Shown here piece by piece: positions 1,353-47,176 of a DNA stretch of 64,000 nucleotides; the stretch's first letter is position 1; the number at the start of each line of letters is the position of its first letter. Under the pieces are notes generated by a model. It searched no databases and was not told where the DNA came from. It saw only the letters and a program-made list of their open reading frames with translations. The position numbers and the translations under genes were made by a program. Source of the stretch: [Eubacterium] yurii subsp. margaretiae ATCC 43715 (GTDB taxonomy: Bacteria > Bacillota > Clostridia > Peptostreptococcales > Filifactoraceae); the NCBI GenBank assembly GCA_000146855.1, contig GL405246.1:1482158-1546157 (forward strand), read 5' to 3'.

Positions 1353-1370
1353 AATTTCACCAATAATTAA

Positions 1371-1399: not shown

Positions 1400-1451
1400 A
1401 ATAACATAAATATTGTTTTTTATAAATACTTAATTTAAAAATAGGATGAAT

Positions 1452-5132: not shown

Positions 5133-5145
5133 ATGTCATATTATA

Positions 5146-5817: not shown

Positions 5818-6126
5818 CTTCCCCACCTTATTACAAATCTATTAATGACAGTATAACTGTTAAAATTAATCTAAACTTTGTCTTCATCAGTAAATTATAT
5901 TTAACTTTTCACTTCCAAAAAATTAATATATTCTATTCAAACTTTATACTTTTTCAAAAAATATCTAATATAATTTTCTATATAATATTTTAAAATCATA
6001 TTTCTAAGAATTATAAATATATTAAATTTTGTTAAATTATATAGTATTATGAATTTATTTCTTCTTATTTCTTTAATATAACAGATATACTAAAAAATAA
6101 ATATTTGAATAAATATTCAAACAGAC
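5818..6126. other. AT-rich intergenic region
   Basis: These 309 bases lie between ung and the TldE-like gene, both on the minus strand. They are extremely AT-rich. I see no gene or strong hairpin. Confidence 0.5.
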
Positions 6127-7296: not shown

Positions 7297-7430
7297 ACTA
7301 CCACCATTATTGAAAATATTTTATATATAATGTTGTTTTCACTTTATTATTTTTCTCAATTATATCACTATTAGAAATTAATTGTCAATTAATCTGTTGG
7401 ATTTTAAATGCTTGTTAGAATCACTATTAT

Positions 7431-7922: not shown

Positions 7923-8098
7923 TAAATAACTGTTCCTCTCTTATAATATTTATAGCACAACAAATCTAATGAAAACAGTATATGACTTTTTCATTTTTTT
8001 GAAATTCTAATTATTATATTAAAGAATATTAAATTTTCCCTTTAATCAATATATATTTGTTTTTTTCAGAGGCATAACATTTTCAATATTTATACCTA

Positions 8099-9262
8099 TT
8101 ACTTATTTTTTTCTTTTTCCATTTTTTTAATCAAAGTCTTTCTTTCGTTTTGACCTCTGTCGTAAAAACTCTTAGTCTTTATATTAAATCTTTGACTTAT
8201 CTTTTCTATCTTTTTTTCATCTTTTTCATCTATAAGACTTATAGCTATACCTGTTTTCTCTGCTCTACCGGTACGTCCTATCCTGTGGATGTAGTAATTG
8301 TAGTCAGTAGGTACCTCATAGTTGATAACGTGAGTTACTCCGTCTATGTCAAAACCTCTTGCTGACAAGTCAGTAGATACAAGATATTGGAACTTCATCT
8401 TTCTAAATTCATTTAATATATGCTCTCTTTTTTTCTGAGAAAAATCTCCGTGTATTATATCGCAGTCATATCCGCTTATGCTCATATACTCATTTAATTT
8501 TTCTGCGTTTTTCTTGGAGTTACAAAATATTATAGACATAAAAGGTCTGTATTCTTCAAGTACAAACTTTAGAGTGTCATTTTTAAATTTTTCAGTTGTA
8601 TGGAATAAAATCTGTTCTATATTTTCCGTAACTGTCTTTTCCTTAGTAACGTCAATTTTAACTGGATTTTTCATCAGTTTTTTAGCCAAATCAATTATAG
8701 GCTTAGGCATTGTAGCTGACAATAACACTATTTGCAACTTGTCCGGCAGTTTATCCTTGAGCAATACTATATCTTCCAAAAAGCCATACTCAAGCATCTG
8801 ATCCGCCTCGTCTATTATAAATCTTGATATGTGTTTCATATTGATATTACCACTTCTGATATGCTCCAAAAGTCTACCCGGAGTGGCAACAATAATTTGA
8901 GAATTACTTACAAACTTATTTTCCTGTTTTTTAAAGTCATGCCCGCCAACTATATTGGCACAGCTTAATTTCTTATCCACATTCAAGTCGTCAAAGACTT
9001 TTTTTGTCTGATTGGAAAGCTCTCTTGTAGGGCTGAGTATGACAGTCTGAGGTAATCTCAAGTTTTCGTCAGTCATTGTCATAATAGGAAGAAGAAAAGC
9101 AAGCGTCTTACCTGTACCTGTCTGAGCCTTTGCTATGAGATTTCTCTTTTTCAATATTATAGGTATTGCCTCTTCCTGTATCTGTGTAGGTGTACTTATT
9201 CTTAATTTTGATAACTGTGATACAAGTTCAGCTTTTATCTTTAAATCTTTAAATTCCGCCAT
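8099..9262 (-). CDS. DEAD-box ATP-dependent RNA helicase
   Basis: The protein has 387 residues with the complete motif set: a Q motif (STPTQIQEEAIP), Walker A AQTGTGKT (46-53), PTREL, TPGRLL, DEAD (151-154), SAT (182-184), a second RecA domain with STDLSARGFDI, and the arginine-finger motif HRIGRTGRAE. It unwinds short RNA duplexes, probably in ribosome assembly or mRNA turnover. The short basic C-terminus ending KKMEKEKNK resembles compact CshB-like members rather than long DeaD proteins. The gene begins 11 bases after the cobQ-like gene and is likely the third gene of a namZ-cobQ-helicase operon. Confidence 0.93.
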   Translation of the reverse strand: MAEFKDLKIKAELVSQLSKLRISTPTQIQEEAIPIILKKRNLIAKAQTGTGKTLAFLLPIMTMTDENLRLPQTVILSPTRELSNQTKKVFDDLNVDKKLSCANIVGGHDFKKQENKFVSNSQIIVATPGRLLEHIRSGNINMKHISRFIIDEADQMLEYGFLEDIVLLKDKLPDKLQIVLLSATMPKPIIDLAKKLMKNPVKIDVTKEKTVTENIEQILFHTTEKFKNDTLKFVLEEYRPFMSIIFCNSKKNAEKLNEYMSISGYDCDIIHGDFSQKKREHILNEFRKMKFQYLVSTDLSARGFDIDGVTHVINYEVPTDYNYYIHRIGRTGRAEKTGIAISLIDEKDEKKIEKISQRFNIKTKSFYDRGQNERKTLIKKMEKEKNK

Positions 9263-9273
9263 TTCATCCCTCT

Positions 9274-10722
9274 TTACAATCCATTTTTAATAATCTTTTC
9301 CAACTCGTCTATATCTACGTATCTTTCAAATTCTTTTGCTAATTTGTCAATTTGTTCTTCTCTATATTCTGAAAAGTCAATAACTTCTCTATTTTCTTTT
9401 ATATTCTTACTTATTCTTATATTATTTAGAATTTGATTTATAAAGCTTGTATTTTCAAATATCCCAAAACCGCAAAAAGCAACAGTATTGCCTTTTTGTA
9501 TTGCAATTACTCCATCACCATCTTCATGCAAGACATCTTTTGTTTTAATATCAGATGTTTTTACATAATTTATTTCTAATTTTTCATCTATATTTTCAAG
9601 TAGTCCTGCTCTTTTTTCAAAAACAATTTCTTTTCTTACTATCTTTTCCTTGCAATGTTTCACTTTTGCATCAAAAATACCAAGCCCTCTTGTAATTATT
9701 TCTTCATTATTTATTTCTTGGCACAAAAACTCTACACCGTTACCAACAGCAATTATGTTTCCATATCGAACATAGTTTTTAATATTTTCCCAGCCACTCA
9801 TTGACTTTATATCATCAGTCACATTTTTACTTGCAGGTATTATCAGCAAATCTGTCTTTTTATCTATTTCATAAGGCAGGACATAGTTGATATTAATGTC
9901 AGGCATTATCTTGAGCGGTGAAATATCTGTAAAATTTGAAAGGTTCTTAAGTTGTAATATGGAAATATTTATCTTCTCATCATCATATTTTTCAACTTTT
10001 TTCTTAAAATTTAAGGAATCTTCTTCTTCAATGTCCACATCTATGTAGGGCATAACAGAAATTACTTTTACTCCAAGCATTGCCTCAATTTGCTCTATAC
10101 CGCTTTGCAAAATGCTTACGTCACCTCTGAATTTATTTATTATTATCCCCTTGTAGTTAGAACGCCACTTTGGCGGAGTAAGCATTATTGTTCCATATAT
10201 TGAAGCAAATACTCCGCCTTTGTCTATATCCGCCACTAAAATAACAGGTGATTTTGCAATTTCACTCATACCCATATTGACAAAATCACCGTCAAGCAAG
10301 TTGATTTCAGCTGGTGAGCCTGCACCTTCTAAAACAATTACATCATTTTCTTCTTCCAGCTTCTTATATGCAAGCTTTATATGTGGAAGATACTTGGATT
10401 TTATTTGATAATATGTCTTTGCATCATATATTTCATCCTTTTTACCAAGCAAGATAACTTGAGATTTTCTGTCTGAATTCGGTTTTAAAAGTATTGGATT
10501 CATATAGACGGATGGATCTATTTTACAAGCAAAAGCCTGTATAGCCTGTGCTCTTCCAAATTCGTTGCCATCTTTATCAATATAGGAGTTGAGTGCCATA
10601 TTTTGAGATTTATAAGGCGCTACCCTATATCCTCTATCAGACAAGACTCTACACATAGCAGTGACAAAAAGACTCTTACCTGCAGATGAGTTGGTGCCTA
10701 CAAACATTATAGATTTTGACAT
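9274..10722 (-). CDS. CobQ/CbiP-type cobyric acid synthase homologue lacking glutaminase residues
   Basis: The N-terminal half is a clear CobQ P-loop amidotransferase: GTNSSAGKS (9-17), then PYKSQNMALNS, GRAQAIQA, VLEGAGSPAEINL and VADIDKGGVFAS. CobQ amidates corrin side chains using glutamine. In the C-terminal glutaminase-like domain the usual nucleophile motif GICGGxQ is replaced by AVGNGVEF (325-332). The GYEIHxG stretch reads LEINYVK and the GTYLHGxF histidine motif reads VAFCGFGIF. All three family landmarks are therefore gone, while the fold and length (482 residues) are kept. It may use free ammonia or have another job. No other cobalamin gene is present. It lies nine bases after the namZ-like gene. 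Confidence 0.85.
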   Translation of the reverse strand: MSKSIMFVGTNSSAGKSLFVTAMCRVLSDRGYRVAPYKSQNMALNSYIDKDGNEFGRAQAIQAFACKIDPSVYMNPILLKPNSDRKSQVILLGKKDEIYDAKTYYQIKSKYLPHIKLAYKKLEEENDVIVLEGAGSPAEINLLDGDFVNMGMSEIAKSPVILVADIDKGGVFASIYGTIMLTPPKWRSNYKGIIINKFRGDVSILQSGIEQIEAMLGVKVISVMPYIDVDIEEEDSLNFKKKVEKYDDEKINISILQLKNLSNFTDISPLKIMPDININYVLPYEIDKKTDLLIIPASKNVTDDIKSMSGWENIKNYVRYGNIIAVGNGVEFLCQEINNEEIITRGLGIFDAKVKHCKEKIVRKEIVFEKRAGLLENIDEKLEINYVKTSDIKTKDVLHEDGDGVIAIQKGNTVAFCGFGIFENTSFINQILNNIRISKNIKENREVIDFSEYREEQIDKLAKEFERYVDIDELEKIIKNGL

Positions 10723-10731
10723 TGTTGTTCC

Positions 10732-12066
10732 TTATTTATACAAATAGTATTTTTTCGTATTTTCTCTAAAGCTATCTGCTTGATTTCTATACATACTTTC
10801 TATTTCAATAGCAGATTTTTTAGCATCTATAGCCTGAGCAAATGCCTTGTTTCCTGTAATTTTGTAAAACATACTCGGTTTTCCGTTTTTTTCATAGAGA
10901 TTTGTAACAAGTTTTTTCTGCTCGTTTGCAGTAGCTATTATATAATATCCTGTTTTTCCGGGGTTAAATAAGTGATAGTCATACACGTCCAATCTTACCC
11001 CTCCACTTTGCCCCTTTGTCTGAGCGACAAAGTTTACACCGGGAAGATTATAAGAATTAAGTCTTTGGGCAAGAAGACTTGAATTTATGTCCTTGCCTCC
11101 TGACCAATTGAAAAAGTCACTCATGCCTATACCCATATTTTCTGAAGAACCTGTAGCCATATATCCAAATGCCGATTTGATATCAGGTATATATGGTGAA
11201 GTCTGTTTGAATCTAAGCCCTGTATCTTGCCATATCATATCTCTTGAATAATTTTTCATTGGAATAACAACAAGATTTACCCCTATATTTCTATTGAAGT
11301 ATCTTGCCAGCTCTCCGGCAGTCATCCCATGAGCCATAGGCATATTATCTATTCCTACAAATGACTTTGCTACATCTTCGAGCATAAAACCTTCTACATA
11401 CTTACACGAAACAGGATTCGGTCTGTCCAAGACTACAAAGGTCTTATTGTATTTTTTACAAGCTTCCATTGATTTGTACATAGTTGAGATATATGTGTAG
11501 GTTCTTGCTCCGATATCCTGTAAATCAAAGAGCATTACATCTATATTTGCAAGCATAGCCTTAGAAGGCTCTCTTGTATCTCCATAAAGCGAATATACAG
11601 GTAGACCTGTCGATACATCTTTACGAGTGCTCACATAGTCACCGGCTTTGATGTTGCCGTCAATACCATGTTCAGGTGCATATAGCGATGTAAGTTTTGT
11701 ATTTTTATAATTATATAGCACATCTTTGAGATTTTGTCCGTTGGAATTTACGCTTGTCTGATTTACAATAGCTCCAACTCTCTTGCCATCTATAAGATAC
11801 CTATACTCGTCATTAAGTATCTGCTCATCACCAAGCACTACTCTTTGACTGTATAGATTTTGACCTTGAGATTCTGATTGAATATCATTTGAAACTTTCT
11901 CCTTAGACTGACTTTCAAAAGGATTTTCAAATGAAATTTCAAAAGGATTCTCATTTACATACTGAGCAATATACTTATCCAAGATGTCAAAGCTCTCAGC
12001 ATGAGAAAAAATACTACTTTCCCTAATAAAAATAAGCATAATAATTACTAAAAATATCTTTTTCAT
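10732..12066 (-). CDS. namZ: NamZ-like exo-beta-N-acetylmuramidase, DUF1343
   Basis: The protein has 444 residues with a signal peptide (MKKIF, a hydrophobic core, and a probable cleavage site near SHAES). A linker of about 60 polar residues precedes the DUF1343 domain. Family hallmarks include YAPEHGIDG, SLYGDTREPS, DVMLFDLQDIGARTYTY, VLDRPNP, MPMAHGMTAGELA and the glycine-rich FGYMATGSSENMGIG. In Bacillus this family (YbbC/NamZ, GH171) releases terminal N-acetylmuramic acid during cell-wall recycling. It would act outside the membrane here. It heads the minus-strand operon with the cobQ-like and helicase genes. Those partners have no obvious wall role, so co-transcription may not mean shared function. 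Confidence 0.88.
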   Translation of the reverse strand: MKKIFLVIIMLIFIRESSIFSHAESFDILDKYIAQYVNENPFEISFENPFESQSKEKVSNDIQSESQGQNLYSQRVVLGDEQILNDEYRYLIDGKRVGAIVNQTSVNSNGQNLKDVLYNYKNTKLTSLYAPEHGIDGNIKAGDYVSTRKDVSTGLPVYSLYGDTREPSKAMLANIDVMLFDLQDIGARTYTYISTMYKSMEACKKYNKTFVVLDRPNPVSCKYVEGFMLEDVAKSFVGIDNMPMAHGMTAGELARYFNRNIGVNLVVIPMKNYSRDMIWQDTGLRFKQTSPYIPDIKSAFGYMATGSSENMGIGMSDFFNWSGGKDINSSLLAQRLNSYNLPGVNFVAQTKGQSGGVRLDVYDYHLFNPGKTGYYIIATANEQKKLVTNLYEKNGKPSMFYKITGNKAFAQAIDAKKSAIEIESMYRNQADSFRENTKKYYLYK

Positions 12067-25653: not shown

Positions 25654-26004
25654 ATGGAAAATAGACAAAGAAATATCCAACTTATTATAAGACTTAATAA
25701 AGATAAAAAAGAGCTTTTTGAAAGAAAAATGAAACTTGCAAAGTGTAAAAACATGAGCCTTTTTATTCGCAAATGTGTTTTAGAAAAGGAAATTTATCAA
25801 GTAGATTTACAGCCATTTGCTGAGTTACAAGGGCTACTTTACAATGCCACAAATAATATTAATCAAATTGCAAAGCACATAAATTCTACAGGAATAATCT
25901 ATCGTGATGATATAAATGATATGAAAAAACAGATAGAACATTTTTCAAAAGAACTTTGGCAAATACATTCTTTACTTTTAAACAGAACTAAAGAAAGTGA
26001 GTGA
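25654..26004 (+). CDS. mobC: MobC-family relaxosome accessory protein
   Basis: The protein has 116 residues. It has an N-terminal ribbon-helix-helix-like segment (IQLIIRLNKDKKELFERKM, then SLFIRKCVLEK) followed by the MobC helical region (NATNNINQIAKHINSTG). Such proteins bind oriT DNA and help the relaxase to nick. AAGGAG precedes the ATG. The stop overlaps the upstream GTG alternative of the relaxase, so both are translationally coupled. It reads opposite to the bulk of the transfer genes. Confidence 0.9.
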   Translation: MENRQRNIQLIIRLNKDKKELFERKMKLAKCKNMSLFIRKCVLEKEIYQVDLQPFAELQGLLYNATNNINQIAKHINSTGIIYRDDINDMKKQIEHFSKELWQIHSLLLNRTKESE

Positions 26005-26009
26005 ATTTT

Positions 26010-27341
26010 ATGGCTATTACAAAAATACATCCCACAAAATCTACTCTTAATCTTGCTATTGAGTATATAACAAAAGCTGAGAAAACAGATGAAAAAATCT
26101 TAGTAAGTACAAATAAATGTCATATATCTACTGCTCATACTCAATTTATTAAAAGAAGACAAGAGTATAATATTAGAGGTACTGTTCTTGCAAGACATCT
26201 TATTCAATCCTTTTTTCCCGGTGAAACAACTCCAGAAACTGCTCATAAAATAGGTCTTGAATTATGTAAGAATATACTTAAAGATGAGTATGAATATGTA
26301 TTATCAACTCACATTGATAAGGGACACATTCATAACCATATCATATTTAACAATGTGAATATGGTGACAGGGAAGTGCTATCAATCCAACAAAAAAAGTT
26401 ATCATCAAATTAGGTATCAAAGCGACAAATTATGTAAAGAAAATACTCTTTCTGTAATTGATGAATATTATGAAATATTCAAGAAAAAATACAAGATTAA
26501 TGGTAAATCTTGGTATGAAAATGAACAGTCAAAACATAGAACTTCATGGAAAAGTAAGCTACAATTTGATATTGATAGAATTATTATAAAATCTAAGGAC
26601 TGGGACGAATTCTTAAAGAGAATGGCAGATCTAGGCTATGAAATCAAATATGGAAAACACATTGCCTTTAAAGCTAAAGAAAAGACAAGATTCACAAGAG
26701 TAAAAACTTTAGGCGAAGATTATACTGAAGATAGAATAAGAGAGCATATCTCAGAAAACAGCAATAAAGAAGACTATTCTATTAAAAAGCGTGTGGGAAA
26801 TATTATTGATATTGAAAGCAATGAAAAGATAAAAGCAAGTAAAGGATATGAATACTGGGCTACAAAACACAATCTTCAAGTTGCTACTGATACGGTTATT
26901 TTAATGAGAGAACAAGGCTTTAAATCCTTTGCTCAGCTTGATGAGTATATAAAGCAAAGTGCAGATAAAAGACAAAATTTACAAGATGAGATTAAGAGGA
27001 TAGAACAAAAAATAACTAATCTTTCTTCTACTATGGAGCAAATCTATATCATAAAAAAATACAAGCTTATTTATCAAGAGTACAAGACTAACTCTTCAGA
27101 TAAGTCATTTTATGATGAGTATAAATCACAGATAACTCTATACAAAAATGCTCTTTCAAATCTTAAAAAACATTACTCTAAAATGCCTGATTCTAAGGAT
27201 ATTTTGAGAGAACTTGATTTGTTGCACGAAAAAAAGAATACCCTAATGCAAGAGTATTCTTCTGTAAAAGATAGTATGAATGAGTTGTATCAAATAAGAA
27301 GAAATTATGAGAAGTATATGGGGAAAGAGAGGGAGAGGTAG
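26010..27341 (+). CDS. MOBP-type relaxase of a Tn1549-like ICE
   Basis: The protein has about 443 residues. It begins MAITKIHPTKSTLNLAIEYI, the usual N-terminus of this group; Tyr19 is the likely nicking tyrosine. The metal-binding motif is HIDKGHIHNHIIFN (about 101-114). The C-terminal third is coiled-coil-like and charged. It cuts one strand at oriT and pilots it into the recipient. The ATG at 26010 is preferred to a GTG at 26001 because it matches the family start. It converges on the defence operon, leaving only 21 bases between stops. Confidence 0.92.
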   Translation: MAITKIHPTKSTLNLAIEYITKAEKTDEKILVSTNKCHISTAHTQFIKRRQEYNIRGTVLARHLIQSFFPGETTPETAHKIGLELCKNILKDEYEYVLSTHIDKGHIHNHIIFNNVNMVTGKCYQSNKKSYHQIRYQSDKLCKENTLSVIDEYYEIFKKKYKINGKSWYENEQSKHRTSWKSKLQFDIDRIIIKSKDWDEFLKRMADLGYEIKYGKHIAFKAKEKTRFTRVKTLGEDYTEDRIREHISENSNKEDYSIKKRVGNIIDIESNEKIKASKGYEYWATKHNLQVATDTVILMREQGFKSFAQLDEYIKQSADKRQNLQDEIKRIEQKITNLSSTMEQIYIIKKYKLIYQEYKTNSSDKSFYDEYKSQITLYKNALSNLKKHYSKMPDSKDILRELDLLHEKKNTLMQEYSSVKDSMNELYQIRRNYEKYMGKERER

Positions 27342-27362
27342 AAAAAAGCCTCATCTCTCTTT

Positions 27363-30300
27363 CTACAATAGATGAGTATCAATAGTAGTATTTCTCAGTC
27401 GCTTTGTGATCATAATTCGTTGACCATCCTTGTCTTTACGAGGTCTAACATAACCTGAGTTTATTAATGATTGTCCGACTCTTTCTTTATACTCATTATC
27501 TAATAACGGTTGTCTCCTATCCCAAACACTTGATAAATCGGAAATTTCCAAAACTGAAGATATATATTGTTTCAAAGTATTTATATCAGAGCGATTATTT
27601 ATCTTTGTTTCAATCAATGATACCTTTGTATCTATTTTTATATTTGACGAGTTTAATACATACTTCATAAAATCTTCATTAAGATTTTCGTTTTCCAATT
27701 CTTCCAATTTGTCTTCATCATCTAATGACTCTATAAACTCATCTTTTAACTCAAACATCTTAAAGGACTTGCATATATAATCAATATTTACCGAAGATAA
27801 ATCTCCCTTTATAATGGCTTCTATGATAGATTTTTTAGTCAGATTTATCCTTTCTACTAAAACAGTGTCCTTTATTGAATTTATTAAATTCAAAGCATTT
27901 TCATCTGAAATTCCACTGTTAACTAAACTATATATTAAATCGTCGGAAAGTTCATATTTTAATAGCGTATTAATAACTATGTCTTCTACCTCTTCATCAC
28001 TATTTGCCAGCAAAGTCAATTCGGCATAATATGACTTATTCCATAACGCTTCGATATTCTTTTCTGTCACTTCAATCAATCTATGGTGAACTAAAGTATT
28101 AACCCTATTTTGCGTTAGATTATGATCGATATTACTTATTGATTCATCTGCGAAATTTATTAAGAATGTAAAAATTTTATCGCTTACCAACGGACTATTT
28201 ATAAAGGTATTACAAATCGATACATTATTTCTTAATATATCTTCATAATTGGTTTCATCCAAGTTATTGCCGAGATATTCAATAAAATCATTACTATATT
28301 CTTCAACCATATTCAAATATGCATCTAAATTATCTGAACAGAACTTAATCTTGTTTTTACGCAATAAGCAATCCAGTATTTTTGTAGTTACGGAGCTATC
28401 CTGTAAATCAGTTAACTTTGAAATTACTGTTTCGTTTTTCTCTACATACTTAAATTTATGTTCATCAGAAATATTGGAATTTAATATTTTAAGCAGTATA
28501 TCTTCGTTGTTAGTATAGTTTTTTTCACTCTTGTTTTCATTTATATAGTTAGATACAATGCTCAAAAAATTATCCTCTACATACTTTTTACTTGACGATA
28601 ATTGCAACGATTTATAGATTTCATTAAATAAACTTCCGTAGTTTATCGTCTTTTCCAATATCGCTTCAGCTATAAATATCAAATTTCTAACATTCAGCTT
28701 ATATGCCTGAATCTGCTCAACAGCTACCAATCTTACTTTATCACAATTTGCTTCTGACACATCTTCAAACTTGATACCCGCAGAATCGATATTATTAATG
28801 AAAAAATCAAATTGTCCCTCGGGTATTAAAGAAATTATGTTCTCGTTTTGTTCTATATATTCCTTAAATACAAATAAGTTATCTAAAGTTATAGTTTTAT
28901 TTGTTACAACTGAAGCCAATATGTTTTTGAAAGTTTCAATGTTTTCATCCTCACAGCAATCTAAAGTATTGACAAGTCTATCCACATTATTTTCCAATAA
29001 TATATTGGAATAGCTTTTTACTATATCAAAGTCAAATTCGTCTAAAATTTTAAGTAAGTCCTTATAATTTGCATTTGTATCAACGGAATCAGCAATAGCC
29101 ACCACATTTTCAGTTCGTTTTTGCTCTAAACAAGACTTTAATACTTTTTTATTCAATATATTGAAACGATTAAAATCAGATAATTTTAAACGACTTATTA
29201 TCTCATCAGGTGATTCAACATCTAAAAAAATATCCAGAAATTTTCCTTCCTTTAATCCTTTCATATATATTGTGTCATTACGCTTCAATGTATTTGATCT
29301 ATCTACATTAAAGTTTCCTTTATAATACCAGTATGTCTCATCCAGTAATCCATCTAAAATCAAAACTCTAATCAATGGAAAATAATGGCTTTCTACAATA
29401 TCAAAATCATCAATTGAAAACAATTCGTCTTTTTGGTCAGTTGTCATAATAGATATAAGCTCCTTGTAGCTATACATCTCAATATCTTTAATTTGTTTTT
29501 GTATTTTTTCCCTATCAGAATTAAGCTTGCTCATTTCAAGCGAAAAATCTTCCGGTAATCTTTCAACTAATGATTTCTTTTCATCATCGGTTAAAACATA
29601 CTTTTCTATGAACTCATTATAAGTAAAATATTGACTTCCGTTTGGATACTTGATATTAAAACTATTCTCAGGTGTTTGACTCCAATCTTTTAGAAATTGT
29701 GGCATCGTTTTAAATTGATTACTATATGGTCTTACATCGGCAGAAATAATTAACGCCATTGCTTCAAACTTATCATTCTCAATTCTACTATTTATGAATT
29801 TAATATTCTCATTTATTTTTTCTAAATCTTTTTTTAAGTTTTGTGCAATTTCTCGCTTATTAGACTCTAATTTATCAAATACAGTTCTTATAAATCCTTT
29901 ATCTTCCTGCAAAAGATCAAATTCATTGGGGAATATATTCTTTAAGGTTATTAGCGCAAATAGCTTGTCGCTCTCCAAATCAATCTGTCCTAATGGTATA
30001 ATTTTAGAGTACACAATATATTCATTAACTATATTTTTAAGAAGTCTCATATCATCTACATATAAAGAAATATCCGCTAAAACGCTTCTATCTGGTGCAT
30101 TTTCAACAGACTTAAAAAGTTCGATAAGCTCATTTTCTGATGTCTTTGAATCCACAATAGGAACAATAGGTAGAATAAAGTCAAAGAATTTAGTTCTGTT
30201 TTTAGAGAAAAACAGACTATCTTTGAGCATGTATATAAACCGGACAGGCTTCTTATCTCCACTTATTTTTACATAATGATTTAAGAGAAAATTTAGTTCT

Positions 30301-31130
30301 CTCAACTTCGTATAAATAGATGTGTTGTTATATCTATCTAAATCTTCAAAAACAACAATTTTTGTACCAGAGCTTCTTAGTAAATAAACTAATTCCTTTA
30401 TGTCTCTATCTAACACCGATTCATCGTTCTTGTCATCATTTACATTTGCTTCTGCACCTTTGAATGTTATTTTAGAAATTCTAAATTTGTTATCTCTATA
30501 GAATATACACAAATAATAAAACATTGGTACAAACAACAATAGAGAACATAAAAGCATCAAAGATGTCCTATCGAATTTTTTATGTAACTCATTAACTAAA
30601 GGTACAAAAGTATCTCTTGTTAACCAAAGAAGTATTGAACATATTATTGATAGAAACGCCAATGACTGTAAACATATACGACATATGCTTTTATTTGATT
30701 TAAAGCCATACTTGCTAAGTGGTATTTTCTTTGATTCTATCTGTGATAAAATTTGATTGATAAGTTGTCTTTCTACACGATTGTCGTCATCTATATCATC
30801 TGCTTTTTGTTTTTCATTACTGTTCTTATCATAATCACAATACGAATCCAAATTGGTAGACTTAGTCAAAGATACTTCTCTTAGACTATCATCATCTTTA
30901 ATATTATTATTATATTTTCCCAAAGAAACGGTAATTACATTGCTTAATCCTTTTTGATGAACATAAGTGTTCCATACTGTACTTTTCCCTGCACCATATA
31001 TACCAGTAATAGCGATATTTTTTATATCGCTATTATCAAAAGCATAATCAAGTGCTTCCGTATATATTTGCTTATTTTCTTTCAGCACTTCCGGAGTAAG
31101 TGCGTTAAATTTATTTTTTTGCTCCTCCAT
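27363..31130 (-). CDS. YobI/KAP-like membrane P-loop NTPase, fourth gene of the R-M operon
   Basis: The protein has 1255 residues. Walker A is GIYGAGKST (43-51). Two hydrophobic segments near 153-171 and 190-211 lie between it and Walker B (IVVFEDLDRY, 258-267). This membrane insertion inside the nucleotide fold is the hallmark of KAP and YobI-type NTPases, which are thought to couple ATP hydrolysis to assemblies at the membrane. A KxxRFIYMLKD-type stretch follows near 300. The remaining 850 residues look like helical repeats and are not recognised. Its ATG lies 3 bases after the Res stop. It could be an effector or sensor in the defence operon; that role is inferred from linkage. Confidence 0.8.
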   Translation of the reverse strand: MEEQKNKFNALTPEVLKENKQIYTEALDYAFDNSDIKNIAITGIYGAGKSTVWNTYVHQKGLSNVITVSLGKYNNNIKDDDSLREVSLTKSTNLDSYCDYDKNSNEKQKADDIDDDNRVERQLINQILSQIESKKIPLSKYGFKSNKSICRICLQSLAFLSIICSILLWLTRDTFVPLVNELHKKFDRTSLMLLCSLLLFVPMFYYLCIFYRDNKFRISKITFKGAEANVNDDKNDESVLDRDIKELVYLLRSSGTKIVVFEDLDRYNNTSIYTKLRELNFLLNHYVKISGDKKPVRFIYMLKDSLFFSKNRTKFFDFILPIVPIVDSKTSENELIELFKSVENAPDRSVLADISLYVDDMRLLKNIVNEYIVYSKIIPLGQIDLESDKLFALITLKNIFPNEFDLLQEDKGFIRTVFDKLESNKREIAQNLKKDLEKINENIKFINSRIENDKFEAMALIISADVRPYSNQFKTMPQFLKDWSQTPENSFNIKYPNGSQYFTYNEFIEKYVLTDDEKKSLVERLPEDFSLEMSKLNSDREKIQKQIKDIEMYSYKELISIMTTDQKDELFSIDDFDIVESHYFPLIRVLILDGLLDETYWYYKGNFNVDRSNTLKRNDTIYMKGLKEGKFLDIFLDVESPDEIISRLKLSDFNRFNILNKKVLKSCLEQKRTENVVAIADSVDTNANYKDLLKILDEFDFDIVKSYSNILLENNVDRLVNTLDCCEDENIETFKNILASVVTNKTITLDNLFVFKEYIEQNENIISLIPEGQFDFFINNIDSAGIKFEDVSEANCDKVRLVAVEQIQAYKLNVRNLIFIAEAILEKTINYGSLFNEIYKSLQLSSSKKYVEDNFLSIVSNYINENKSEKNYTNNEDILLKILNSNISDEHKFKYVEKNETVISKLTDLQDSSVTTKILDCLLRKNKIKFCSDNLDAYLNMVEEYSNDFIEYLGNNLDETNYEDILRNNVSICNTFINSPLVSDKIFTFLINFADESISNIDHNLTQNRVNTLVHHRLIEVTEKNIEALWNKSYYAELTLLANSDEEVEDIVINTLLKYELSDDLIYSLVNSGISDENALNLINSIKDTVLVERINLTKKSIIEAIIKGDLSSVNIDYICKSFKMFELKDEFIESLDDEDKLEELENENLNEDFMKYVLNSSNIKIDTKVSLIETKINNRSDINTLKQYISSVLEISDLSSVWDRRQPLLDNEYKERVGQSLINSGYVRPRKDKDGQRIMITKRLRNTTIDTHLL

Positions 31131-31133
31131 AAA

Positions 31134-33743
31134 TTACACCGTCTCCATCCATTTGTTAATTACTTTCTCAAATTCCCCCATCCTATTATCTTTGTTGAAG
31201 AATGGGAATCCGATTATTCTGTAACCATCTGCAAATAACCCTGTAACTGAATGCTCTTTTTCAATCTGCATTGAAAATGCTTCTTTCCAAGCATCATGAT
31301 CCAGAAGTTGATTGCCTTTAGGTTCAACATATCCTTGATAAGTGAGACTACCTTCACTTCTTTGCTTTCTTACAAACAGCAAAAAGTCAGGTTCAAATCG
31401 CTCTCCAGCTTCAAAAGAATATATTGCCAATTCAGGAATTCTTTCATTCCTAACAACATAGTATTCCAAATTCTTCTCCTTTAATTTTGGTTCTATGTGT
31501 GTTTTAAAATACTTTACAAAAAGCTTTTCTTCGCTCGTTCCGTAGTTGTCATTAAATACATACCAGCTCTCATTTGTTAAGTCTAATCTATATTCTTCAT
31601 TTGAGCAATTATTTTGAGAATTTCCTTTTCCACCATTTCCTTCAATTGACCCTAAGCTGATTTTCTTGTCTTTCAAAATCACTTTAAGCTGCTTAGGTTC
31701 AAATTCTTTAGAGCCTACATATTCAGGCTTGATAGCCATAGCATGCGATGCAACTTTTACTAAAGCGTGCTTCATAGCTGAAAATAAAATCTTTCCATTA
31801 ACTTCATCCTGAGAATATGTTATTTCCACATTAGAGTTTCCGAGAAACTCATCTGAAGTTAAAAATTCCCTCATTGATTTTAGAGATGGATATTTCTCTT
31901 TAAGTATGTCAAAACGAAGCTCCTCAAAGCATTCTATAGCCCCGAGCAAAATATTGTAATCTATATCCTTGAATTTAACACTCTTCAGATTTGTCTTAAT
32001 GGTACTTGTGTTTGCAGTATCATCGCCTATAAGATTTACAATATTTCCTTTGCCGGAAAGGGCTGTATAGTAATATGTTTTTGTCTTCATACTCGGTTCA
32101 AGGGAATGTACTTCATCTCGTCCCTTCAGCAATCTCTTATTAGAAAACACATAGCTCTTATTATAAAAATCACTCTCCTTAAACTCATCTTTAAGAATAT
32201 ATTCCAAAATTATTGGATTAGGTGCCTGCAATCCTGTTTCTATTAGAGCATTCTTCAATTCTGATATATATCTTGAGTCATTTTTACTGTGAAAGTACAT
32301 TGTCTCCAAAATACGATTAGGATTCGATATATCGCCATCAAATTTTCTTTTAAATTTAAGTTCTTCATCATCTACAGCAAATGGACAATACCTCGCACCT
32401 CTTCCAATAAGCTGTGCTTCTTCGATTGTATACTTTCCTATCTTTCCACCTGATTTACTTTGTCTTGTATCATATAGACGGACTATATCAAAGAGATTAA
32501 GTACATCCCAACCTTCATTTAGCATATCTACTGCAAAGATAAGTCTAATTGGATTATCAAGGTCTTCTAAGGAATTAACTAATAACTGATTTTCCTTGTT
32601 ATTATCCGAAGAACTATTCATTATTATTGAAGTATCTTTGGTAAAAGATGTTTTGATTGACTGCTCCAAAAGCTCAAGAGTATCATCCTTTTCCTTGAAA
32701 TAATTTATCGCTTCCGTCAATTTTTCTATTCCAACTAATTTCAAGTTCTGAAGCTCATAGCTCGTCAATTCCTTTAATTTCTTATAAAATTCATCATAGA
32801 AACTCTTTGACTTCTCTTTTTTTTGTGATTTAAGCATAACCACAGGCTTAATATTGAGTTTTAAGTCAGCAAACAAAAACCTCCTATACTCACTCATTAC
32901 GAGAGCCATAAGCGTTCTTGTCCATAAATCGGTATTCGTTGCGAAATTCTGAAAGTCTTTTGTATATCCACTTTCCCTAAAAGAAATAAGAGGATAGTTG
33001 AAGATGATTTTATCCTTATACTTTTGTAATACATTTAAATCTTTTAAATCACAAGTAGCAGTAAATTCAAGCATAATGCTATCCATATTTCGTGACATAG
33101 CATTTGTAACAGAGTATTCCCAGCTTTTAGCAGCTTCTTCTTCGTCTTTAGTAGGTTTCTTAGTTAGTGAATTGATATGATGGCTTTCATCAGAAATAAA
33201 AACCACTTTATTATTCTCAAAGTCATCATAAGTCAGCGAATTTTCCTTCGCTTCAAATAAATCCATATGAAGTTTTTGCGTAGTAGTAAACAATATTTCG
33301 ATGTCGTCATCTAAAACATTACCACTAAAGTTTTCAACCCTTTTTATCTTGACCTTTTCCCCTAAGTACTCTACAACATCATTGAATAGATACTTATTTG
33401 AAATCGGATTAATAAAATTATCAATCGTTTTTTCAAGAACATTGGTCTGATTTACGAAAAATAAAAACTTTCTATACCCTTTTGTATATAAGTACAATAT
33501 CAGACCTGCCATAATGACAGTTTTACCGCTGCCTGTCGCCATATGGAAAAGAGTATGGACTTGCTTATTTTTTCTTAATTCATCATTGTCAAAATATAAG
33601 GCAAAGTTTGTAAAAGCATCAATTTGATACTCTCTTAGAGAGATTTTCTTTGAAAGTCCACTTTTAATAATTTCAGGGAAATCAATGCTCGTACCAAATT
33701 CTTTTGCGGCATCTAATTTTTCGTATAAAAACTGTTCCGACAT
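31134..33743 (-). CDS. res: Type III restriction enzyme, Res subunit
   Basis: The protein has 869 residues. Helicase motifs are complete: Walker A ATGSGKT (69-75), the DEAD-like box SDESHH (184-189) and a motif VI-like LIGRGARYCPF. The C-terminal nuclease is a PD-ExK type, with FEPDFLLF followed by GYVEPKGNQ, so both subunit activities look intact. With Mod it would translocate along and cleave DNA carrying unmodified sites. The ATG at 33743 has GGAGGT upstream, lying inside the last codons of mod, and begins one base after the mod stop. An upstream frame start at 33791 lacks this support. Confidence 0.92.
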   Translation of the reverse strand: MSEQFLYEKLDAAKEFGTSIDFPEIIKSGLSKKISLREYQIDAFTNFALYFDNDELRKNKQVHTLFHMATGSGKTVIMAGLILYLYTKGYRKFLFFVNQTNVLEKTIDNFINPISNKYLFNDVVEYLGEKVKIKRVENFSGNVLDDDIEILFTTTQKLHMDLFEAKENSLTYDDFENNKVVFISDESHHINSLTKKPTKDEEEAAKSWEYSVTNAMSRNMDSIMLEFTATCDLKDLNVLQKYKDKIIFNYPLISFRESGYTKDFQNFATNTDLWTRTLMALVMSEYRRFLFADLKLNIKPVVMLKSQKKEKSKSFYDEFYKKLKELTSYELQNLKLVGIEKLTEAINYFKEKDDTLELLEQSIKTSFTKDTSIIMNSSSDNNKENQLLVNSLEDLDNPIRLIFAVDMLNEGWDVLNLFDIVRLYDTRQSKSGGKIGKYTIEEAQLIGRGARYCPFAVDDEELKFKRKFDGDISNPNRILETMYFHSKNDSRYISELKNALIETGLQAPNPIILEYILKDEFKESDFYNKSYVFSNKRLLKGRDEVHSLEPSMKTKTYYYTALSGKGNIVNLIGDDTANTSTIKTNLKSVKFKDIDYNILLGAIECFEELRFDILKEKYPSLKSMREFLTSDEFLGNSNVEITYSQDEVNGKILFSAMKHALVKVASHAMAIKPEYVGSKEFEPKQLKVILKDKKISLGSIEGNGGKGNSQNNCSNEEYRLDLTNESWYVFNDNYGTSEEKLFVKYFKTHIEPKLKEKNLEYYVVRNERIPELAIYSFEAGERFEPDFLLFVRKQRSEGSLTYQGYVEPKGNQLLDHDAWKEAFSMQIEKEHSVTGLFADGYRIIGFPFFNKDNRMGEFEKVINKWMETV

Positions 33744-33744
33744 A

Positions 33745-35700
33745 TTAGACCTCCGCATAGAAAGATTTTGTGAATGCCTTGTCCGACTCACTTATAGCAT
33801 AGCTTTCATCATCCATATCCGAGTAATTTACATAGAGTTTGTTCTTATCGACTAAGCTGATAAGAGCTTTTTTCTTCTCTTCCAATTTCAATGAATTAAA
33901 TTCTTCATCAGCTTTCTCTAACTCTTCCCTTGTGATATATGGAATAATACGCTCATCAACATATATTTCTTTCTTTATTTTAGAGATTGTTTCTTCTGAA
34001 GCTGCTTGAATTTTTTCAATAAGAGTGCTTGCGTTTTCAAGAAGCTCGCAATAGATAAATGAGCCACCACCTTGCCAATCGGCAGATTTTGATATACCTC
34101 CTTGTTCTCCATCTATCACTTTTTTCATTCTTTCAACAGTAATATTCTGGATATAGTCCATTTGCTCAACACCTATATATCTACGACCCATTTTATGAGC
34201 AACTGCACAGGTTGTGCCAGAGCCAAGATGAAAGTCAAGGACAATATCATTTTTATCTGCTGCTAATGATATTAATTCTCTTATCAAAAACTCAGGTTTA
34301 GTATAATCAAAAATATTTTTTATCCCCAGAAGTTCGGCATGTTTAGTTGCATTGTCATTTGAATATATATTATTTGTTAACTCAATTGTTGATAACGGTT
34401 TCGTTCTATCAATATTGACAATTGTATACTCTCCATTATTATCAACTATTTTAACTTTTTGATATGTCTTAGTGTAAATTCTTGGTCTATCTTTTCCCTC
34501 CTTGAGAACAATAAAGCCATTAGCAAGACCAAAATTAAATAGATTTTCACTCCATCTCCAAGCCCAATCAGCTCTCCTATGCTCGCCATTTTGCCTTTTT
34601 TGATACATGTTATAATCTCCTCCAGGATATAATGTTTTACCTTCAAGTTCTATAGGGTAATCCAATGATTTACTATATTGCAAGCTGTCATAATCAAGTG
34701 TTTGATTTAGCTTATAGTATCCTCTCTCAGCAAAATATTTGTCCTTTTGATTAAATTTATCATCGTCGTGCTTAGGAGCATATATTTTTACATTATGTTT
34801 ATTTTTAGCACACATTAGAACATAGTCGTGATTATTTGCTATTACCGATGAAGATTTTCCACCTCTTTTGGTAACTCTAGGAAATTCTGCAACAAAATTA
34901 TTTATTCCAAATATCTCATCCATTAGTACTTTAGCATAAGCTTGTTCATTATCATCACATTGAACAAAGATAACTCCAGTTTCTCTTAATAACCTTTTTG
35001 CAAGTTCAAGCCTATTTTTCATAAATGTAAGCCAGCCCGAATGATTAAACGCATCATTATAATTAAAGCTGTCTGAACCCGTATTGTAAGGTGGATCAAT
35101 ATAAATGCACTTAACTTTGCCCTCATATCGTTTTAGTAAGCTCGAAAGTGCAATCAAGTTATTCCCTTTGATAATTAAATTATCATTCTCATCAAAAGTA
35201 ACATTGTCTTCGACTCCATCTTTTGTATATCTCTTTGCGTTCGTAAAAACTTTCGGAGCAAGCATTTTGCTAATTTCATCGCTTGCTATAGTCTCATTGT
35301 AGAAAATCTCTTTACGCTTCTGATCCTCCTTATCCTGACCACCTTCAAGGACACAATCTTTATATGGAAAGTCTAATACAACATCATTCGACTTTGAGAT
35401 GAAGTCTCCGCCATTGGTTAATCCGATTTTATTTGTATATCTCGTATATGAATCTGGCAAGAATTCCTTAGACTCAATAAACCAAGCAAAACCTTGTTTA
35501 TCGAAAATAAGTGTTCCATTTACATCCTCAAAAAATCTTTCTTTAATTTTTTCATTTGATAAAAGCAAATGCAACAATTCTTTATCCATTGTCATTACAT
35601 CGCTATAAACTATCGCCTTGAGCAATTTACCATCATCAGAAATATACTTTGAATTTGTCTTTAATACTTCCTCGACTATTTCAAAAATGTTCTTATTCAT
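33745..35700 (-). CDS. mod: Type III DNA adenine methyltransferase, Mod subunit
   Basis: The protein has 651 residues. The catalytic motif IDPPYNTGSD is at about 201-210 and the AdoMet-binding motif DFHLGSGTT follows far downstream, the beta-class order of type III Mod proteins. The region between them should hold target recognition. It methylates adenine in an asymmetric site and guides Res. The ATG at 35700 directly follows the stop of the small XRE gene, whose last codons contain GGAGG, so translation of the two is coupled. No simple-sequence repeat typical of phase-variable mod genes was seen. Confidence 0.94.
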   Translation of the reverse strand: MNKNIFEIVEEVLKTNSKYISDDGKLLKAIVYSDVMTMDKELLHLLLSNEKIKERFFEDVNGTLIFDKQGFAWFIESKEFLPDSYTRYTNKIGLTNGGDFISKSNDVVLDFPYKDCVLEGGQDKEDQKRKEIFYNETIASDEISKMLAPKVFTNAKRYTKDGVEDNVTFDENDNLIIKGNNLIALSSLLKRYEGKVKCIYIDPPYNTGSDSFNYNDAFNHSGWLTFMKNRLELAKRLLRETGVIFVQCDDNEQAYAKVLMDEIFGINNFVAEFPRVTKRGGKSSSVIANNHDYVLMCAKNKHNVKIYAPKHDDDKFNQKDKYFAERGYYKLNQTLDYDSLQYSKSLDYPIELEGKTLYPGGDYNMYQKRQNGEHRRADWAWRWSENLFNFGLANGFIVLKEGKDRPRIYTKTYQKVKIVDNNGEYTIVNIDRTKPLSTIELTNNIYSNDNATKHAELLGIKNIFDYTKPEFLIRELISLAADKNDIVLDFHLGSGTTCAVAHKMGRRYIGVEQMDYIQNITVERMKKVIDGEQGGISKSADWQGGGSFIYCELLENASTLIEKIQAASEETISKIKKEIYVDERIIPYITREELEKADEEFNSLKLEEKKKALISLVDKNKLYVNYSDMDDESYAISESDKAFTKSFYAEV

Positions 35701-35919
35701 TTATTTATCCTCCAAGATATTTTTTTCAATACAGATTAAATCCCCAATATCTGTTCCAAGTTCTTCGCAAATTTTTCCGATAATCGTAAGCGATACAGCA
35801 TCTCCTCTAACCATTTTTGAAATTGTAGTAGGTGATACCCCTGTTTTATCAATCAGGTCTTTTTTCTTCATATTCTTATCTATTAGAGTCTTCCAAAGTC
35901 CATTGTAGTTGAATTCCAT
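35701..35919 (-). CDS. Small XRE regulator of the R-M operon (C-protein-like)
   Basis: The protein has 72 residues consisting almost only of a Cro/C1-type helix-turn-helix (KDLIDKTGVSPTTISKMVRG, then IICKICEELG-like residues). It is the first gene of the operon and abuts mod without a gap. A perfect 11-bp inverted repeat sits at its transcription start, so it probably represses or times its own operon as controller proteins of many R-M systems do. The ribosome site is weak (GGAGTGAGG is rather far from ATG), which may keep first expression low. Confidence 0.85.
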   Translation of the reverse strand: MEFNYNGLWKTLIDKNMKKKDLIDKTGVSPTTISKMVRGDAVSLTIIGKICEELGTDIGDLICIEKNILEDK

Positions 35920-35938
35920 TTTTCTTTCGCCTCACTCC

Positions 35939-35992
35939 ATAATATGGATTTTTCATCCATATTATTATAGCACATATTTTTTTATATTTCCA
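35939..35992 (-). promoter_or_regulatory. Promoter and palindromic operator of the R-M/NTPase operon
   Basis: On the minus strand TGGAAA (35987-35992), 17 bases and TATAAT (35964-35969) form a promoter. An inverted repeat with perfect 11-base arms, ATAATATGGAT (35939-35949) and ATCCATATTAT (35955-35965), separated by 5 bases, covers the expected start point. The XRE ATG is about 20 bases further on. Confidence 0.8.
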
Positions 35993-36001
35993 CAAAAAGA
36001 A

Positions 36002-36029
36002 GCCGGTGCAGTCCGAAGACCACACCGAC
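36002..36029 (-). terminator. Intrinsic terminator after the SSB-like gene
   Basis: On the minus strand a 7-bp stem (GTCGGTG/CACCGGC, with one wobble) is extended by GTC-TTCG-GAC, a stable UUCG tetraloop, and followed by TTCTTTTTG. It lies just after the SSB-like stop and insulates the downstream R-M promoter from the transfer operon. Confidence 0.85.
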
Positions 36030-36035
36030 AATTCC

Positions 36036-36695
36036 TTATCTTTCTGCTTCTTTGGAAGCTTCTTTTTTCTCAGCAGGCTTTTCTTTATCTTCAGCTTTAT
36101 ATTTCTTTATTGCTCCAAGAACAGACTCTTTCTTTTCTTCTTGATTCTTCATTTGCTCTTTGGCTTTAAGAAGCTTAGAAGAAAGTATCCTCACATTGCT
36201 ATACACCTTTCCATTTTCATCAATAGATTTTCTTTCCTGTCCGAATAACTTTACAAAGTCTCCTTTCTTAAAGTCTTTTGGAATATCTCCCTTATCACCA
36301 TAAGCAGAACAATTGGTATAAGTTTTGTTTCCCTTATCATCTTTTGATACAACAGAGAAATTCACTACCTTAAACGTTTCACCATTCATGTTTTTGTTTT
36401 CTACCACATCTACTTCTCCGACTACATTACCTACAATATTTACCAAGTCATCATTTTCTTTTTCAACAACATCATTATCTTTAATAGCTCCATTTTCTTT
36501 AAGTTCGTCAATCATATAGTCAAACTCATCATTTAATAGACTCATATTGTCATTTTTCATATAATCTTTATATAGCCTATCCAAGGCTTTCATATCATTT
36601 ATTCCTTTTTCAAAGCTTATAAATGCCTTTGTAAAGTTCTCATTATTTTCTTCAGACATTTTTTCCAACATATTTCTCATTTGTCTGTAATTCAC
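36036..36695 (-). CDS. SSB-like OB-fold protein of the ICE
   Basis: The protein has 219 residues. The first 80 are acidic and helical. From about 88 to 175 an OB-fold like that of single-stranded DNA-binding proteins is visible (NIVGNVVGEVDVVENKN, then FSVVSKDDKGNKTYTNC and FVKLFGQERKS). A charged tail follows (SVLGAIKKYKAEDKEK). It probably coats the transferred or replicated strand. The tail resembles the C-terminus of the SNF2 protein encoded 52 bases upstream ([15 protein letters not shown]), which suggests a common docking peptide. Both genes read in the same direction. Confidence 0.75.
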   Translation of the reverse strand: MNYRQMRNMLEKMSEENNENFTKAFISFEKGINDMKALDRLYKDYMKNDNMSLLNDEFDYMIDELKENGAIKDNDVVEKENDDLVNIVGNVVGEVDVVENKNMNGETFKVVNFSVVSKDDKGNKTYTNCSAYGDKGDIPKDFKKGDFVKLFGQERKSIDENGKVYSNVRILSSKLLKAKEQMKNQEEKKESVLGAIKKYKAEDKEKPAEKKEASKEAER

Positions 36696-46222: not shown

Positions 46223-47176
46223 TTATACCCCATAAAGTATATCTTCAAGCACATTCACCACAATACTATTCCCAGCTTGTTTATACAATATCGATGACAT
46301 TTTTCCTTTCTTTTGTGGATATATTGTTCTTAGCTTATCAAAATCCTCATCATCAAATCCCATTAGTCTGAAACATTCTCTCTCAGTTAAATACCTGTAC
46401 TTGCCGTTTCCTAAGTCTATCACTCCCGAATTAGGTACTCGTACTTGCTTAGTGGATATAGTATACACATATTTGTCTATTATCTTTAGTCTACCTTTAT
46501 AATTTATGTTCTTTATATTTCCTTGTATATTACTTAGAATTGACTTTTGTCTTACTTCATAAATCTCAGATACTTCTTTTTCAAGAAATTCCGATATGTG
46601 TTTAGTAGGTATTTTTTCAAGTTTTTCAAAATCAAAGTTGTTTTTTCCCAATATACTTACTACAAATATCCTCTCTCGCTTTTGTGGTATGCCAAAGTCC
46701 ATTGCATTTAATACCTTGTACTTGTTTTCATATCCAAGTCTTTCCATTTCGTCCAAATATTGAAAAAAGGAAGTCCTCATATTCTTATCAAGAACTCCCT
46801 TTACATTTTCCCAAAGTACAACTTTAGGTCTCATATTCATTTCTTCAATTATTCTTACCGTTTCAAATAACAGGCTGCTCCTTGTGCCGGTTCCCTTTAC
46901 TCCTCCTTTCTTCTGTCCGATTCTACTGAAATCTTGACAAGGACTTCCATGCATTAGCAAATCCACTCTTTCATTTGGTGCATGATATTTAACAATATCC
47001 TTAGGTGTAAAATCAGCATTATACAAAGCATTGTAACTCTTGACACAATTTTTATCTATCTCTACATAATCAACTACTTTATGTGGTATCTTCTGTCTTA
47101 TCAAAGCCTTTCTTAATGCTCCTATACCGCCAAAAAGTTCCAAAACATTTACTTCATCTATATAAACCACCTCCAC
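46223..47176 (-). CDS. dcm: DNA (cytosine-5-)-methyltransferase
   Basis: The protein has 317 residues with all main motifs: ELFGGIGALR (I), GSPCQDFS with catalytic Cys80 (IV), WENVKGVL (VI), QKRERIFVV (VIII), and the closing QAGNSIVVNV (X). The target-recognition region is short, about residues 190-260. No restriction partner is adjacent, so it is probably an orphan methylase that shields the ICE from host restriction. The start is uncertain: the GTG at 47176 overlaps an AGTGGAGGTGG ribosome-site-like stretch, and no better in-frame codon follows before motif I. Confidence 0.92.
   Translation of the reverse strand: MEVVYIDEVNVLELFGGIGALRKALIRQKIPHKVVDYVEIDKNCVKSYNALYNADFTPKDIVKYHAPNERVDLLMHGSPCQDFSRIGQKKGGVKGTGTRSSLLFETVRIIEEMNMRPKVVLWENVKGVLDKNMRTSFFQYLDEMERLGYENKYKVLNAMDFGIPQKRERIFVVSILGKNNFDFEKLEKIPTKHISEFLEKEVSEIYEVRQKSILSNIQGNIKNINYKGRLKIIDKYVYTISTKQVRVPNSGVIDLGNGKYRYLTERECFRLMGFDDEDFDKLRTIYPQKKGKMSSILYKQAGNSIVVNVLEDILYGV

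Follow-up and report, generated by a model that had tools for sequence, protein, structure and literature searches.

The 64,000-nucleotide stretch of [Eubacterium] yurii subsp. margaretiae ATCC 43715 analyzed here (contig GL405246.1, positions 1,482,158 to 1,546,157; "the window") carries on its minus strand, at 27363-35919, a four-gene unit for an XRE-type regulator, the modification (Mod) and restriction (Res) subunits of a type III restriction-modification (R-M) system, and a large membrane nucleoside triphosphatase (NTPase) of the YobI/Tmn family. Relatives of this NTPase stand beside R-M genes of many kinds more often than random genes do, and in the window's own clade the NTPase frame stays open even where the R-M genes are broken or gone. 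We lean, with a little less than even confidence, towards reading the unit as a mobile phage-defence cassette of two layers, housed in a cargo site of an integrative conjugative element (ICE), with an autonomous NTPase packaged alongside a type III R-M system, rather than as a system whose NTPase is a partner-dependent effector. The parts are known; what appears new is the layering of R-M and Tmn in one cassette, and a Tmn lineage found preferentially with R-M. The genes and the relevant parts of their products are as follows.

35701-35919, minus strand: XRE/Cro-type regulator of 72 residues, first gene (Pfam HTH_26, E-value 7.8e-16)
33745-35700, minus strand: type III Mod, an N6-adenine DNA methyltransferase of 651 residues (Pfam N6_N4_Mtase and TypeIII_RM_meth; PADLOC MTase_III, E-value 1.8e-188)
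34201-34950, minus strand: target-recognition region of Mod, about residues 251-500, apparently swapped relative to the related locus L001 (identity blocks)
31134-33743 from its own ATG, minus strand: type III Res of 869 residues, helicase with C-terminal PD-ExK nuclease (Pfam ResIII; PADLOC REase_III, E-value 5e-95)
27363-31130, minus strand: YobI/Tmn-family, KAP-type NTPase of 1255 residues, fourth gene (Pfam PF20693, YobI-ATPase; PADLOC Tmn)
30981-31004, minus strand: Walker A motif GIYGAGKS, NTPase residues 43-50 (sequence)
30504-30686, minus strand: two predicted membrane segments, about residues 149-179 and 186-209, flanked by Walker A and the Walker B-like motif (hydropathy)
30336-30356, minus strand: Walker B-like motif VVFEDLD, NTPase residues 259-265 (sequence)
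27459-29150, minus strand: C-terminal helical-repeat solenoid, about residues 661-1224, a candidate sensor (AlphaFold2 model)

A first-pass annotation of the window had described four packed genes, and gene calls and sequence agree: the intergenic gaps are 0, 1 and 3 bases, and the GGAGG-like ribosome sites of the downstream genes, as read from the sequence, fall within the preceding genes. The R-M pair is of type III by sequence, as Mod combines methylase and type III N-terminal domains, with a DPPY motif at residue 202, and Res combines a superfamily 2 helicase with a PD-ExK nuclease; its PD...VEPK motif is uninterrupted, and the type III motifs are indeed intact, as had been claimed. The likeness to ordinary type III systems such as EcoP15I ends at the flanks, where the window adds the XRE gene in front and the coupled NTPase behind; BrxC, PglX and PglZ were not found by Pfam among the four genes. 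When Mod is compared with its L001 counterpart in blocks of 50 residues, identity is 88-100% over residues 1-200 and 551-651, 18-40% over residues 251-500, and 68 and 74% in the blocks between, which points to exchange of the recognition region, and with it probably of specificity, between copies.

The NTPase is foreign to ordinary type III systems, as the annotation had held. The sole Pfam domain found, YobI-ATPase, spans residues 23-414 (E-value 3e-106); no tRNA anticodon nuclease domain was found by Pfam, and no NCBIfam family covers the protein. The PADLOC Tmn profile (1273 positions) matches it with an E-value of 4.4e-63 and also matches all six other NTPases scanned, the clade relatives L001, L078 and L096 among them. 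Like Tmn proteins, it is a YobI/KAP-type NTPase of about 1200-1280 residues with two predicted membrane segments inside the NTPase domain. Whether the combination was already catalogued had been left open: the NTPase is, under Pfam YobI-ATPase and PADLOC Tmn, whereas our searches of the open-licence PMC literature turned up no paper that pairs Tmn or YobI genes with R-M. An AlphaFold2 model of residues 400-1255 has a mean pLDDT (predicted local distance difference test score) of 83.4 and shows a long helix (413-461) ahead of the solenoid. The model of residues 1-520 is poor (pLDDT 52); with this low confidence it places helices at 149-170, 172-182 and 188-213 in the membrane-segment region. 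Among the 50 best matches listed per structure library, no specific PDB fold was found for the C-terminal model, only generic helical repeats with TM-scores (template modelling scores) of at most 0.20, and therefore we claim no fold name for this half; no sequence relative was found in the PDB at E-values up to 1. The order of P-loop domain, membrane hairpin and solenoid suggests that sensor and effector may be joined in one chain. The closest protein, 99% identical, is from Peptoanaerobacter stomatis (Bacillota), and Clostridioides difficile, Clostridium neonatale, Streptococcus suis and S. anginosus have homologues at 78-86%; no relatives were found in viral contigs or phage records, and the homologues in plasmid records are all distant (<60% identity).

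The type III arrangement recurs across phyla. A non-exhaustive scan of a species-genome collection, based on two peptide patterns drawn from close homologues, gave six loci, L001-L006. Campylobacter majalis (L001, Campylobacterota) has the full XRE-Mod-Res-NTPase order, at 97%, 63%, 93% and 81% identity respectively, and a contig of a Gallicola metagenome-assembled genome (L005), which begins just ahead of Mod, has Mod-Res-NTPase at about 50%; a linkage confined to this strain, which the annotation had considered, is ruled out by these two. Res is reduced to its last 73 residues before the NTPase in Oribacterium sinus (L004), where a STAND-type NTPase gene occupies the place of Mod and most of Res (5604-9545). 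Veillonella has the NTPase with XRE (L003) or an XRE piece (L002) and no Mod-Res, and Streptococcus sp. (L006) has it after another small regulator, with a Mod-like gene 3 kb beyond. L094, from the survey described below, carries in one direction (736-11936) a KAP NTPase gene, one more gene, frame-broken type III Mod and Res, and a YobI NTPase. Intergenic gaps of 3-5 bases occur in the window, L005 and L094. Mycoplasmopsis cynos has a helix-turn-helix (HTH) gene, Mod and Res (Res 74% identical to the window's) with no NTPase annotated alongside; the plasmid-labelled records NZ_LR214986.1 of this species (0.99 Mb) and NZ_CP084075.1 of Fusobacterium vincentii (2.1 Mb) are chromosome-like in size.

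For a wider view, PF20693 was searched in the genomes around five of L001-L006, where 8/391, 5/76, 7/298, 5/61, 10/249, 18/266, 10/299 and 8/150 were over the cut-off (the sets overlap). From these matches 52 regions were taken, leaving out fragments or pseudogenes (G1212, G1148, G437, G1554, G1579) and weak matches (G477, G553, G823). Together with L001-L006 they make 58 loci, or 51 once L080 (no NTPase by BLASTP) and six loci at least 90% identical to another are removed. R-M genes were counted by a search with seed proteins, partly drawn from the same loci, up to a distance of four genes in the same directon. An R-M or BREX (bacteriophage exclusion) gene lies within this distance at 22 of the 51 dereplicated loci and is the immediate neighbour at 15; the count is 19/45 without L001-L006, which were found via the window's relatives, and 16/51 with each locus's own seeds left out. 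The weakest of the 22 are L004, L075 and L121, L004 being counted via its own-seed C5 methylase four genes off and not via its Res remnant, and at L120 PglZ is placed beside the NTPase by seed search only. No R-M neighbour was found at 29 loci, which include L077, on a contig without upstream sequence, and some with short flanks. The partners by Pfam are:

L078: D12 and AlwI
L088: D12
L098: LlaJI and AAA_5
L083: Eco57I and ResIII/T5orf172
L096, L081 and L118: HsdM and HsdR
L082, L097 and L125: HsdR
L079 and L084: HsdM
L094 and L127: Mod and Res domains
L110: ISP
L122: BrxC, an Eco57I/N6 methylase read as PglX, and PglZ, surrounding the NTPase

The association is thus with R-M in general, spanning types I, II and III, ISP, LlaJI-like systems and BREX, and an NTPase specific to type III is ruled out; the recurrence that the annotation had proposed to look for beside type III pairs is real, but it extends beyond them. 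Two loci have the NTPase within another operon: L122 (1054-15821) reads brxC-pglX-NTPase-nuclease-pglZ, with a YhcG/DUF1016 nuclease, and L096 (5208-16228) is a type I operon of hsdM-hsdS-NTPase-ADP-ribosylglycohydrolase-hsdR in which the NTPase frame shares 4 bases with that of the glycohydrolase. The excess of R-M genes at YobI loci over random genes is firm, with 0/54 genes in 20 random regions R-M-linked (p = 6e-9; this and the further Fisher tests assume independent loci). As a second control, 17 strong matches to the KAP NTPase family were considered, of which 16 regions were taken, two of them (L131, L145) on contigs shorter than 5 kb. One of the 16 (L138) has an R-M gene, a C5 methylase, in the directon, and no R-M families were found among 55 KAP neighbours at 13 loci in the 25 of 67 matched Pfam families listed.

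On a tree of 47 NTPases, built by a quick search with SH-aLRT (Shimodaira-Hasegawa-like approximate likelihood ratio test) support only, the window belongs to a 12-member clade (support 100), of which 10 members are R-M-linked, the L004 remnant counted. Their partners are type III, type I, AlwI, LlaJI-like and Eco57I/ResIII genes, and the six members that came from the PF20693 draws (L078, L083, L094, L096, L097, L098) are all linked. Outside the clade the figure is 13/35 (Fisher p = 0.007 against the clade, which was chosen after seeing the tree). That the NTPase would be found mostly away from R-M genes, named by the annotation as an outcome that would speak against its proposal, is therefore true of the family as a whole (29/51), but not of the window's clade.

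Within this clade the NTPase does not depend visibly on an intact partner. Its frame is full length in 11/11 clade relatives of the window, despite the state of R-M in four of them: L002 has no R-M genes, L004 a remnant, L001 a stop in Res, and L094 broken frames in both Mod and Res. In L001 the in-frame stop is at codon 804 of Res (7388-9997) and separates one half of the PD-ExK motif from the other, but the frames of XRE, Mod and NTPase are uninterrupted; the methylase of L098 is fragment-like. Outside the clade, the NTPase is split or short at 8/40 loci. Its persistence beside damaged or lost R-M genes in the clade suggests that the NTPase is worth retaining for its own sake. We also looked at 12 regions (nine from Pseudomonadota) chosen from 635 plasmid records with a match: the seed search found R-M at 0/12 of these NTPase homologues, and the existing annotation, which covers all of them but L167, lists no restriction enzyme. 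It does show a methylase at most four genes away, on the NTPase strand, in two regions: L170 has a cytosine methyltransferase and L176 a DNA methylase. Since both are absent from the seed results, the seeds miss some methylases.

These observations bear directly on the idea that the membrane NTPase is held inactive by the R-M complex and released once a phage protein disables restriction. It would explain the position of the NTPase in the R-M operon and the tight spacing, and it has a precedent in PrrC, which, in the passages of PMC12707154 on R-M systems coupled to accessory genes, is an effector embedded in EcoPrrI and activated when EcoPrrI is inhibited. We nevertheless regard such a mechanism as distinctly unlikely here. 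The NTPase is intact where its supposed holder is missing or damaged (L001, L002, L004, L094), at the majority of family loci no R-M neighbour was found, and partners as unlike as AlwI, HsdR, Res and BREX have no obvious common holding protein. The annotation's suggestion that the NTPase is triggered when restriction fails is doubtful on the same grounds, and also in view of the 12 plasmid homologues, where no restriction enzyme was found.

Alternatively, the NTPase could act jointly with the ATPase or nuclease of the R-M system it is paired with, and might for example recruit restriction to incoming DNA at the membrane. Tmn reportedly co-opts the Gabija ATPase when the two systems act together. 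The Gabija-tmn synergy itself, which the relevant part of PMC12735699 cites to earlier work, and the insertion of the NTPase inside the hsd operon of L096 and the brx/pgl operon of L122 agree with direct partnership. However, the AlwI and D12 partners in L078 have no motor ATPase among their Pfam matches, the NTPase persists without R-M, and partner types switch often on the tree, so that we give direct partnership a small chance.

Relaxase, type IV coupling protein and TraG-like ATPase genes in the window led us to read the carrier as an ICE. The cargo site (26001-36695) is bordered by two genes of this element.

26001-27341, plus strand: MobA/VirD2-like relaxase, convergent neighbour of the cassette and one border of the cargo site (Pfam Relaxase)
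36036-36695, minus strand: conserved ICE gene, the other border, judged by eye to resemble oligonucleotide-binding or single-stranded DNA-binding proteins (Pfam DUF3801 below cut-off)

Defence cassettes headed by related XRE genes occupy such a site, beside a convergent relaxase, in L003, L078, L095, L098, L134, L135 and L138 as well; compared with the window's XRE, these regulators are 68% identical in L003 and 39-58% in the other six. In this layout, with the relaxase convergent to the last cargo gene, the cargo is XRE-D12 methylase-AlwI-NTPase in L078 and L095, XRE with LlaJI-type pieces and the NTPase in L098, XRE-NTPase in L003, and XRE-KAP in L134 and L135. L091, L092 and L102, where the NTPase is near a relaxase but divergent, were left out of this count. 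The window element has further genes of possible interest: a C5 DNA methylase (46223-47176) and an MT-A70-type methylase (60838-61380) among its transfer genes, and an FRG-domain protein (57261-58253) beside an HTH regulator. The window also holds a selenocysteine tRNA gene (5042-5132, minus strand; Rfam tRNA-Sec, 67.7 bits).

Three signals mark the upstream end of the cassette.

35964-35992, minus strand: sigma-70-like promoter before XRE, TGGAAA-17-TATAAT, with an extended -10 (TG ahead of the -10) (motif search)
35939-35965, minus strand: candidate XRE operator over the likely start point, an inverted repeat of two 11-base arms around a 5-base spacer (repeat search)
36002-36029, minus strand: terminator with a 12-pair stem, UUCG loop and T run, upstream border of the cassette (stem search)

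Promoter and terminator lie where the annotation had put them, and so does its "perfect 11-bp palindrome", which is in fact an inverted repeat interrupted by a spacer. As inverted repeats of such length with spacers of up to 10 bases occur at four separate places in the window, length alone is modest evidence. TCCAT-N3-ATGGA at 35936-35948 overlaps the repeat and has a counterpart, TCCAT-N4-ATGGA, 5' of XRE in L001, and stems resembling the terminator also stand 5' of XRE in L001, L003 and L095. Terminator-like sites in the region number 8, against 2.8 in shuffles; promoter-like sites are not enriched (42 against 48.5).

Together, the YobI/Tmn matches, the recurrence in L001 and L005, the linkage in the survey and in the clade, the open NTPase frames and the other cargo in the same ICE site suggest the following model. 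The first layer would be the type III R-M system, with a Mod recognition region exchanged between copies, and the second the Tmn-family membrane NTPase coupled behind Res. XRE would repress its own operon, which would let the cassette enter a new host and be tolerated there. The C-terminal solenoid may sense an infection signal, and the NTPase domain and membrane hairpin would carry out the block. The NTPase would work without the R-M proteins and cover phages that escape restriction, for example by DNA modification or inhibitors, and we propose that complementary coverage and movement as a single unit keep the two layers together. Tmn inhibits phages in Escherichia coli and, as the Tmn passages of PMC11846954 report, point mutations in the phage DNA-modification enzyme Nmad5 allow phages to escape it. 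If sensing were tied to DNA modification, Tmn would therefore be useful beside R-M, as phages with modified DNA that evade restriction would still be caught.

Several points weigh against the two-layer model or limit the linkage on which it draws. In the same passages of PMC11846954 deletion of nmad5 gave no escape, and modified DNA is therefore not established as the Tmn trigger. Because the best stretch of the Tmn match covers residues 2-472 only and the C-terminal half of the window NTPase is divergent, its trigger may differ. The R-M damage, seen in draft contigs, may in part be assembly error. On the whole tree the R-M label clusters weakly: it needs 13 changes, of which starred branches force at least 10, whereas shuffled labels need about 16 on average, and between 37 and 51 of 500 shuffles reach a count as low; the association has often been gained and lost, which argues against tight coupling. 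With the KAP control counted as 1/13, Fisher tests give p = 0.015 (22/51), 0.019 (19/45) and 0.08 (16/51). The seventeenth KAP match, however, lies in L094, two genes before Mod, which makes the control 2/17, or 2/14 dereplicated, and the values 0.04, 0.05 and, with own seeds left out, 0.18. Compared with another NTPase family from similar islands, an excess of R-M genes at YobI loci is thus likely, not secure. R-M linkage as a trait of all KAP NTPases is unsupported by the same 2/17. Finally, the linkage could reflect direct co-operation, or merely shared islands.

The last of these points amounts to an explanation of its own, namely that Tmn and R-M genes simply accumulate in shared defence islands and ICE cargo sites. 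The XRE-KAP cargo in the same site, the many YobI loci without R-M neighbour, the plasmid homologues without a restriction enzyme, the KAP comparison and the weak clustering all fit with it. It does not readily account for the gaps of 3-5 bases, for NTPase genes inserted between hsd genes and between brx and pgl genes, or for the concentration of linkage in the window's clade, post hoc as the choice of that clade was. We consider shared residence an improbable explanation on its own. A bolder idea, not probable either, is that the window's YobI/Tmn lineage is a universal plug-in for methylation-based defence: one sensor-effector that has repeatedly joined R-M systems of types I, II and III, LlaJI-like ones and related ones (outside the lineage also ISP and BREX), and that would read a feature shared by all of them, for example how incoming DNA is modified or an escape strategy common to all.

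The two-layer cassette resembles several known arrangements and differs from each. Tmn, as treated in the cited part of PMC11846954, is a single-gene system, whereas the window NTPase is the fourth gene of an R-M operon. R-M operons with PrrC or RloC likewise hold an extra defence gene, according to the passages of PMC12707154 on them, but the window NTPase has YobI-ATPase only by Pfam, and in its clade the frame is kept open without R-M. In the counter-invader operons with KAP, Orc/CDC6 and restriction endonuclease proteins, a KAP P-loop NTPase is also coupled in an operon with another defence module; as the relevant section of PMC10853773 describes them, the partner is the Orc/CDC6 set, not methylation-based R-M. 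Plasmid NZ_CP054154.1 of Streptococcus salivarius (L179, 5133-12272) has type III Mod-Res (Res 37% identical to the window's), and immediately behind it, with the same orientation, lie genes for an OLD-like TOPRIM ATPase and a helicase. From its domains this pair may be read as Gabija-like, a second layer behind type III R-M made of proteins other than an NTPase of the window type.

The mechanism of Tmn is described as unexplored in the passages of PMC11846954 cited above, and an R-M-associated lineage that outlives its partner offers a clear test: does it cover phages that restriction misses? R-M operons would also become worth searching for second-layer immunity other than anticodon nucleases, and the ICE cargo site is one where layered cassettes are exchanged, the cassette itself being present in Bacillota and Campylobacterota. 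The occurrence of Tmn-family genes beside many kinds of R-M suggests that they serve as a reusable second layer of defence.

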